In this document: positions 9,007 to 21,679 of the stretch, piece by piece
Position numbering within the stretch: the first letter of the stretch is position 1
How the letters are laid out: the number at the start of each line of letters is the position of its first letter
IMG/VR virus record: IMGVR_UViG_3300025732_000241
Location: 1-25,643 of that record
DNA: 25,643 nucleotides
Reading direction: 5' to 3' (one strand)
Source of the DNA: a virus
Program-made: the position numbers and the translations under genes
Notes under the pieces: generated by a model
The model's input: the letters and a program-made list of their open reading frames with translations, nothing else
Told to the model about the DNA's origin: nothing
Databases searched by the model: none

Positions 9007-9036
9007 TTTTTATTATAAATCTATCTTATTTATTCA

Positions 9037-12869: not shown

Positions 12870-13049
12870 TCAGTTACTCAGGCGTTCTTCGATATCACTG
12901 AGCATCTGTAAGATCACCTCACGACTATCCTCACCGTTCTCCTCTAACTGTTGCATAACGTCTTGCAGTTGTGGTAGAATAGCGGTGACACTTTCGGGCA
13001 CCCTTATCATCACTCCGTAACCCAGATTCTTATACTTTAGTGGTCTCAT
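12870..13049 (-). CDS. small hypothetical protein, 59 aa, with hairpin leader
   Basis: Reads MRPLKYKNLGYGVMIRVPES, VTAILPQLQDVMQQLEENGE, then a helical acidic C-terminus (LQMLSDIEERLSN), probably a small coiled-coil protein. The ATG at 13049 directly follows the right arm of a perfect 17-bp inverted repeat whose loop contains CTAAATA. The TGA stop lies at the start of repeat element copy 1. No Shine-Dalgarno visible. Function unknown. Confidence 0.65.
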   Translation of the reverse strand: MRPLKYKNLGYGVMIRVPESVTAILPQLQDVMQQLEENGEDSREVILQMLSDIEERLSN

Positions 13050-13100
13050 AGTTTTGATAGCATAACTGGGGTTATTTAGGGGGGTTATGCTATCAAAACT
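13050..13100 (-). repeat. 17-bp perfect inverted repeat with late-promoter-like loop
   Basis: Arms AGTTTTGATAGCATAAC (13050-13066) and its exact complement (13084-13100) with a 17-nt loop containing CTAAATA on the minus strand (13079-13073). It abuts the ATG of the 59-aa gene. Transcripts from upstream could form the hairpin; a late transcript starting about 6-7 nt after TAAATA would lack the left arm. Confidence 0.8.
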
Positions 13101-13112
13101 AAAAGTGCTGTT

Positions 13113-20097: not shown

Positions 20098-20730
20098 TTA
20101 CAAATATCTAAACTTAAATCCTTTTGTTTGTTCTCTCATTCCTTTACAAACTTGACAAATTGATGATCTCGTAAAACTATTCTCTCTCGCCCATTCTGCT
20201 ATGTTAAAAACAACTTGTTCAGTTCCATCGGGGTAAGTAACAATATATTTTTTTGCTCTATTTGTATTGCCATATGGTCGGTGTGGATTTACATTCGCTT
20301 CCGTTCTTTTTCTAACTAAATCTTCTGGTTGTTTTCTTCCACGAAGTTGTGATGCTATTTTTTCTGTATGTTCTGGCGTTCTTGGTGGTTTTGGTTTTCT
20401 TAATTTTATCTTTGTTTCCTCTGACATCTCCCAAGTATTACCTTTCTGCGAAGGTGGTCTATTTCCACCTTCAGTCATATTATATTCTGCTTTATATTTT
20501 TTTATAAACTCATCTTCTCTTTGCAGTGCATCATCACCACAATATACTTGCTCAACAACAAAGTTATTTACACCATACTTTCTCATCGCATTATACAATT
20601 TTTGACTATTTCTTTTGTATTTTGAGTTTTTAATGTGTGTTTTGAATCTTTGTTCTACAGATAGAGTTGTAAAACCAACATAACACTTATTATTGAGTAT
20701 ATTTGTTATTTTGTAGAGGAACATTAGCAT
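20098..20730 (-). CDS. GIY-YIG homing endonuclease, 210 aa
   Basis: The N-terminal GIY-YIG nuclease domain is visible as FLYKITNILNNKCYVGFTT (the LYKITN and YVGFTT strands), the catalytic Arg in VEQRFKTHIKN, and REDEFIKKYKAEYNMTEGGN with the metal-binding Glu and final Asn. NUMOD3-like DNA-binding repeats follow (EETKIKLRKPKPPRTPEHTE, KIASQLRGRKQPEDLVRKRT), then a NUMOD1-like C-terminus (FNIAEWARENSFTRSSICQV). It is T4 Seg-like, a free-standing homing enzyme. Its composition is more AT-rich than its neighbours, a sign of insertion. The start is 20730 or the ATG at 20724 (MFLYKITN); both lie in or next to the hairpin 20723-20758. Confidence 0.93.
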   Translation of the reverse strand: MLMFLYKITNILNNKCYVGFTTLSVEQRFKTHIKNSKYKRNSQKLYNAMRKYGVNNFVVEQVYCGDDALQREDEFIKKYKAEYNMTEGGNRPPSQKGNTWEMSEETKIKLRKPKPPRTPEHTEKIASQLRGRKQPEDLVRKRTEANVNPHRPYGNTNRAKKYIVTYPDGTEQVVFNIAEWARENSFTRSSICQVCKGMREQTKGFKFRYL

Positions 20731-20758
20731 AAATTATTCTTGTATTATTTATGCTAAT
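20723..20758 (-). repeat. 12-bp perfect inverted repeat over GIY-YIG start, with late promoter
   Basis: Arms ATTAGCATAAAT and ATTTATGCTAAT (20723-20734 and 20747-20758) with a 12-nt loop. On the minus strand CATAAATA (20753-20746) is a late-promoter match inside the first arm, and the gene's ATG codons lie in and next to the second arm. Early read-through RNA would fold over the start codon; a late RNA starting about 6-7 nt downstream would not. The same design is established for T4 I-TevI. Confidence 0.8.
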
Positions 20759-20764
20759 TTCACT

Positions 20765-21679
20765 CTATTTAATCCAACTCTTTTCAAGAGTGAAGTTCAG
20801 TCTGCTAAACTCTTCACGGTTTACGATCTTGTAGGTGCCATAATCGTTGGTCATGACATAACCTTCGTGATCGCTCAATTCTCCACCAATTTCACACGAA
20901 ATATCAGTGTCACACTCAATGAAGCAGAACAAATCCATTTTGATAGATTCAACCAACTTCCACAAACGCATCAGGTTGATGTCAACATCATAATTTTCTG
21001 CAATTTCGTGCTCATCCACCTCTTTACCCTCACGGATGTAGGAATTGATGACTTTTTTGAGTTCTGCTGCTTGTTTTACATTCACGAACTCACAAAGAGT
21101 GCTCATTTGCTTCGCAAACTTACAGAAGTCCTCAATATCATCCAGATGCGGACAGATTTCTGCCTCGGGTTGTACCCATTTCACATCCAGAGTATCAACA
21201 AACTGTTTGGTAGTAGGTTGTGCGATAGCATTGCGAAGATCATTCTCACAGATATACTCAGTGTGAGGTGCAATAATTACACTTTGCTCGATTACTTCAG
21301 GAAACTTATAGGTAATCGTATTGGGGCGGTAGGTATTATCACCACCAAACCCAATAAAATCACCTTGATAAATGAACTTTGTGCGAGGCAGACTATCAAA
21401 ACAAGCGTGAAGAATATCTGCTACTTTGCCCTGATGGTTTGCATCAATTTCTTCATGAGAATGATTGATTTTGATTTTAACTTTGTTGAACACAGATTTA
21501 GTGCCCACAAAGAACTTACCATTGGCAGGATTGCGACCCCACACAATAGCAGGCGCTCCATCAATCTTGACAGAAACCTTAGACGGAGCAGTAAACCAAT
21601 CCAGAACCGATAGATCACCAGTTAGGATAGAATCTTCAGGGTGTTCGATATGTTTGTTCTGCATTTGCTTGTTGCTCAT
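20765..21679 (-). CDS. nucleotidyltransferase/ligase-fold protein, 304 aa
   Basis: Motifs of the covalent nucleotidyltransferase (ATP-dependent ligase/RNA ligase) superfamily appear in order: K-I-D-G at residues 38-41 within KVSVKIDGAPAIVWG (motif I, with the candidate adenylated Lys38), IYQGDFIGFG at 103-112 in the position of motif III, HEGYVM at 271-276 (motif IV) and the Lys in TYKIVNR at 284 (motif V). There is no obvious OB-fold domain after motif V. It may be an RNA- or DNA-end-joining enzyme, or a member of a phage family of unknown function with this fold (annotated DUF6267, uncertain). The ATG follows repeat copy 9 directly. Confidence 0.65.
   Translation of the reverse strand: MSNKQMQNKHIEHPEDSILTGDLSVLDWFTAPSKVSVKIDGAPAIVWGRNPANGKFFVGTKSVFNKVKIKINHSHEEIDANHQGKVADILHACFDSLPRTKFIYQGDFIGFGGDNTYRPNTITYKFPEVIEQSVIIAPHTEYICENDLRNAIAQPTTKQFVDTLDVKWVQPEAEICPHLDDIEDFCKFAKQMSTLCEFVNVKQAAELKKVINSYIREGKEVDEHEIAENYDVDINLMRLWKLVESIKMDLFCFIECDTDISCEIGGELSDHEGYVMTNDYGTYKIVNREEFSRLNFTLEKSWIK

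Follow-up and report, generated by a model that had tools for sequence, protein, structure and literature searches.

How a homing endonuclease gene (HEG) that lies directly behind another phage gene could be held back until late infection is the question raised by this locus, in which a hairpin over the start of a GIY-YIG gene also holds a late promoter box. The window, i.e., the whole stretch of 25,643 nucleotides that was analysed, is a 25.6-kb fragment of a T4-like cyanophage with genes for a gp6-like baseplate protein, DUF6267, a methyltransferase and a helicase, and its best DNA matches are short stretches of 72-73% identity in the Synechococcus phages S-SM2 and Bellamy. The gene of interest (Table 1) encodes 210 aa when read from the ATG at 20730 and 208 aa from the ATG at 20724; it matches PF01541 with an E-value of 9e-10 (39.1 bits, cut-off 22.6), was assigned to the PHROG family phrog_314, homing endonuclease, and its protein matches the I-TevI structures with an E-value of 1e-4. 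Six relatives of the protein share 69-82% identity with it, L104/L105 add two more at 78%, and the catalytic residues Y6, Y17, R28, E72 and N84 are invariant across the family. Judged from this domain and from the catalytic Tyr, Tyr, Arg, Glu and Asn, the product is a free-standing GIY-YIG endonuclease, which agrees with the initial annotation of a free-standing endonuclease in a cyanophage, as do the two family matches and the T4-like cyanophage gene content.

Table 1. Coordinates of the features discussed (window positions unless another record is named)
Feature	Position	Strand	Remarks
Free-standing GIY-YIG homing endonuclease gene	20098..20730	(-)	PF01541, phrog_314
Host gene DUF6267/phrog_455	20765..21679	(-)	PF19782, E 9e-86; its 3' end is the insertion site
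Hairpin 5' arm ATTAGCATAAAT	20747..20758	(-)	perfect 12-bp inverted repeat
Hairpin 3' arm ATTTATGCTAAT	20723..20734	(-)	ATG 20730 lies inside, as do bases 1 and 2 of ATG 20724
12-nt hairpin loop	20735..20746	(-)	predicted late start about 20740 inside; basis: box -13..-6 spacing, sequence
Extended stem including lower helix TAGAG/CTCTA	20714..20767	(-)	mismatches allowed
Late promoter box CATAAATA	20746..20753	(-)	fits cyanophage late consensus NATAAATA
Second late box (GAATAAATA context)	9027..9034	(-)	20 nt upstream of a 133-aa gene
36-nt element copies (AAAGTG position)	21695, 20078, 19173, 18197, 17578, 16614, 15524, 15198, 12854; weaker 22045	(-)
S-SRM01 nested leaders	L153 9536, 12348, 17059; L154 4015		basis: folds
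B23 nested leaders	L166 2542, L173 4260, L176 7303		basis: folds

The hairpin and the late box of the window are real. The perfect 12-bp inverted repeat that had been reported over the start of the GIY-YIG gene was found with both ATGs covered by it; counting this one, the window has three perfect inverted repeats with arms of 12 bp or more and loops of 3-20, where dinucleotide shuffles give 0.05 per window, and when mismatches are tolerated the repeat over the gene start comprises 24 nt at 83%. The RNA of positions 20700-20775 folds with -18.4 kcal/mol (z -6.2), which was reached by 0 of 200 shuffles; a search against Rfam gave no match. The late-promoter match described in the first arm is likewise present there, and the sequence that it fits, NATAAATA, is the published late promoter consensus of cyanophages (PMC2984593). 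The box inside the 5' arm is one of just three NATAAATA boxes in the window. ATAAATA itself occurs at three sites, all on the minus strand, compared with 10.8 expected for both strands, and the two other sites are minus-strand boxes beside baseplate genes. The 133-aa gene downstream of the 9034 box directly precedes the gene for baseplate gp6, which shows the motif to be a mark of late genes in this phage. The predicted +1 lies 6 nt past the box, inside the loop, in an AT-rich sequence (AATACAAGAATAATTT), and RNA that begins there would be without the 5' arm. An 8-bp box of the NATAAATA type about one turn upstream of the predicted start is the layout of a T4-type late promoter, although CATAAATA departs from the T4 consensus at one base, a point against the switch proposed below.

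Of two in-frame ATGs within the stem or at its edge, the one at 20730 is missing in L104/L105 and the one at 20724 is kept in all close relatives. Because it is the only conserved one of the two, the ATG at 20724 is the likelier start, which would give a protein beginning with MFLYKITN. Neither a consensus nor a GGAG-like Shine-Dalgarno (SD) site was found in the leader of the window or in those of its relatives, only a weak AAGA in the loop, which sets the gene apart from I-TevI and segB and counts against the switch; the hidden element would therefore be the start codon itself rather than a ribosome-binding site. Read-through RNA from the DUF6267 gene, which is presumably transcribed early, would have both arms, and the HEG start codon in it would be locked in a stem whose length is between 12 and about 19 bp; as we propose, ribosomes could then not start on this RNA. 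Once the late sigma factor (a gp55 homologue) is active, RNA polymerase would start in the loop from the CATAAATA box and produce a late RNA in which the 5' arm is gone and a 16-nt leader to the ATG at 20724 remains, and this RNA would be translated. The predicted cost of opening the start region is 14.8 kcal/mol in the read-through RNA versus 1.0 kcal/mol in the late RNA, which is predicted to be unstructured, and no shuffled version of the upstream half, out of 300, gave a difference as large; together with the pairing kept in relatives, these values support the earlier claim that the start would be hidden on the read-through RNA and free on the late RNA. Since CATAAATA, the box, and TATTTATG, which holds the start codon, are reverse complements, one short sequence would be both promoter and lock. 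The timing and the effect of this switch, like the early read-through RNA, the use of the box by gp55 and the translational block, are what we infer from features read directly from the sequence, namely the pairing, its position, its conservation in relatives, its place inside the insert and the enrichment of such stems at cyanophage HEGs.

The place of the hairpin was defined by comparison with empty sites. DUF6267 is found in 465 phage records, nearly all of them cyanophages, and in the relatives without an HEG its last codon, TGG, is followed directly by the stop codon (L020, L047 and L079). In the HEG-bearing relatives, the cassette sits exactly between TGG and TAA: its end in L104, CAG followed by TAAGGGGGGACGTT, matches the empty L047, and its end in L101, CAG followed by TAACTGGGCCCTTGA, matches the empty L079. 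In the window, compared with the empty L020, the order is TGG, ATTAAATAG to TTTGTAAATA and then TAACTCTGGGGCC, and the new stop codon of DUF6267 comes from the cassette. These boundaries place both the hairpin and the promoter within the mobile unit, and we consider it likely that the HEG cassette bears its own switch for late-only expression.

Among six leader types (the window, L100, L101, L103, L104 and L106), 11-12 of the 12 pairs are kept despite changes, and pairing across them amounts to 98.6%, compared with 29-44% when the arms are slid. In the L103 leader the T4 box is perfect, TATAAATA, and the pair persists as G-U; the L104 leader shows an exchange of A-U for U-A as well as one C-A mismatch, and its predicted effect is smaller (d 2.1). 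A covariation test on these closely related leaders was not significant (83 of 500 shuffles) because there were few independent changes among them, and L005, in which the stem is absent and CTAAATA stands instead, counts against the proposed switch. The GIY-YIG relatives L108-L123, which are below about 43% identity, were left out as their leaders do not align.

The mechanism of a hairpin combined with a late promoter is established for I-TevI, and similar arrangements were reviewed for I-TevII/III, T4 segB and Aeh1 mobE (PMC2988022). In T4, which served as a positive control, the change in opening cost was highest for e (13.6 kcal/mol), I-TevII (12.5), gene 49 (11.0) and segB (10.1), with I-TevI next at 8.3, and segB came first when the genes were ranked by helix length; these top-ranked genes are known or proposed to be hairpin-controlled (PMC2988022, PMC3014915). 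The initial annotation had named I-TevI as the model, and its logic of a hidden start and a late start fits the sequence of the window; by sequence comparison, however, the free-standing T4 segB comes closer than I-TevI and is the nearest known case. Like the window gene, segB is a free-standing GIY-YIG gene in which CATAAATA of the 5' arm pairs with a TATTTATG that holds the start codon, its leader (GAACATAAATA to TATTTATGTTC) has the same core, its hairpin is of similar stability (-19.4 kcal/mol) and its late start is predicted in the loop. It differs in having an AGGAG SD sequence in the loop and in being located between tRNA genes and not at the 3' end of DUF6267, and the two proteins share only about 32% over the GIY-YIG domain. 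I-TevI, from the td intron, shares the start region hidden in read-through RNA and the late RNA without the 5' arm, but it is encoded in an intron whose splicing its hairpin protects as well, and it has an SD and an operator that is known. The mobE gene of Aeromonas phage Aeh1 is likewise a free-standing HEG with a hairpin that sequesters its ribosome-binding site (PMC2988022), but it is of the HNH family, follows the Aeh1 late consensus and is inserted within nrdA. The leaders of T4 lysozyme e and gene 49 resemble that of the window in that the long RNA is blocked and the late RNA open, although they belong to phage genes and not to mobile endonucleases. A consensus SD sequestered in the stem, which the window gene does not have, is a feature of the three T4 intron HEGs and is not universal in the class. 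The window hairpin very probably acts as initially annotated, which would place it in the segB/I-TevI/mobE class as a member from a cyanophage.

A survey of late-box genes in ten cyanophage genomes showed the box bridged by a perfect helix of 10 bp or more at 11 of 29 nuclease/HEG-like genes versus 0 of 288 others. A gene was called an HEG from its Pfam/PHROG hits or from homology to genes with such hits; a few of these calls are weak, and at least one EndoVII-type protein counted as HEG-like may instead be a nuclease of recombination. For cyanophage HEGs, PF01541 by itself is not sensitive enough. In S-SRM01 and B23, which were chosen for their HEG hits, such helices occurred at 9 of 21 nuclease/HEG-like genes and 0 of 72 others (p 3e-7), and the median changes in opening cost, for which 50 shuffles were used, were 4.1 and 1.1 kcal/mol, respectively (p 2.8e-4). 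In eight further genomes, chosen from DUF6267 hits alone, the helix measure, which was picked after the first survey, gave 2 of 8 versus 0 of 216 (p 1e-3), and the opening cost changed by 5 kcal/mol or more, a threshold fixed before this second test, for 4 of 8 versus 16 of 216 (p 0.003). This distribution suggests that similar switches may be present on many cyanophage HEGs and on almost no other late genes. A strong test case is the HNH/NUMOD3 gene of the cultured marine phage S-SKS1 (L200:18717-19148, minus strand), whose GATAAATA box is bridged by an 11-bp perfect helix (AGATGGGAGCA) and whose change in opening cost is 15.2 kcal/mol. Large changes in start accessibility were also predicted for two late-box genes that are not HEGs, S-SRM01 uvsW (L158:3290-4750; 7.6 kcal/mol) and the B23 tail tube gene (L164:4147-4866; 10.1 kcal/mol), which have no long bridging helix and may represent noise or an independent control.

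The palindrome could instead be read as a DNA operator bound by a repressor of the late promoter, either the endonuclease itself or some other protein, in which case the RNA hairpin would be incidental. I-TevI does autorepress at an operator that overlaps its own late promoter (PMC2988022), and the inverted repeat of the window is centred next to the box. We nevertheless regard this reading as unlikely: the G-U changes in L103 and L104 (base pair 1) keep the RNA pairing yet break the DNA symmetry, the hairpin arm extends into the start codon and other cyanophage HEGs have stems of unrelated sequence at the same position. The targets of GIY-YIG enzymes are, moreover, usually not palindromic, and the operator of I-TevI resembles its homing site, a likeness that the window palindrome, by eye, does not show. 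An operator role could exist in addition to the RNA switch.

That the stem begins at the stop codon of DUF6267, and that RNase E cuts the T4 segB and segG RNAs (PMC2988022), would fit a terminator or an element for the processing or stability of the DUF6267 transcript, but such a role is improbable, given that the stem is AT-rich with no U run after it, is part of the insert and missing from the empty alleles, and that the nested leaders of other cyanophages (see below) have a terminator-like hairpin as a separate part. A terminator scan found none at the site, and the terminator reading of the window stem was rejected. Chance could also be invoked, as both the box and its complement are rich in A and T and a palindrome with TATTTAT can arise from NATAAATA itself; an AT-rich repeat that merely happens to hold CATAAATA is nonetheless very improbable in view of the shuffle results for the repeat and for the opening cost, the conserved pairing and the HEG-specific recurrence with unrelated stem sequences.

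Other elements were observed in the window. A second start-codon hairpin on the minus strand (13049-13101) has an 18-bp perfect stem (-25.1 kcal/mol, z -9.7) that ends at the ATG of a conserved 59-aa ORF (MRPLKYKNLG..), which is not an HEG; its loop contains CCTAAATA in the window, and of 14 viral contigs whose arms are identical (L285-L299), several have CATAAATA at this place. As the sequence of the arms does not vary, the hairpin may alternatively be a protein site. Furthermore, a near-identical 36-nt element, AACTCTGGGGCCTTGAAAGTGTCCCTATAGTATGAGC, is found on the minus strand upstream of about ten genes, clustered around DUF6267. It is also present in S-SM2, SynMITS9220M01 and several IMG/VR contigs, did not turn up in the eight other named genomes examined and had no Rfam match; its TATAGT could be the -10 box of an early promoter.

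Several cyanophage HEGs, including those of S-SRM01 and B23 in Table 1, have nested leaders in which an outer arm, a terminator-like hairpin, the late box, the second outer arm and the ATG follow one another, with outer-stem sequences that differ. These leaders were judged from the printed folds because the automatic terminator classifier missed clear cases. The nested form would block early RNA twice, by termination and at the level of translation. One 87-nt nested leader, composed of an outer stem, a terminator-like hairpin, TATAAATA and the ATG, is found with 87-98% identity before unrelated endonucleases at three insertion sites (L124-L135 and L139-L141, e.g., L126 around 1461-1550), and the proteins behind it, GIY-YIG in L124, EndoVII-like in L126 and NUMOD3-type in L127, are without detectable similarity. 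It looks like a portable expression module, which would work by the double block. We give about even chances to the broader proposal of a lock specific to cyanophage HEGs as a class, in simple and nested forms, with the 87-nt leader having moved between unrelated endonucleases and sites. No description of the class-wide specificity or of the portable nested leader was found in the open-licence articles searched, and these are the new part, whereas the switch of the window would belong to a known class.

The T4-style lock on selfish endonucleases would thus extend to cyanophages, with the promoter itself as the lock. The survey suggests a general, testable rule, i.e., that stems of 10 bp or more across a late box single out the endonuclease-type genes of the surveyed genomes, many of these genes carrying only a "hypothetical" annotation. 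If this is true, such stems could serve to locate mobile elements and to study why it costs the phage to express an endonuclease early.
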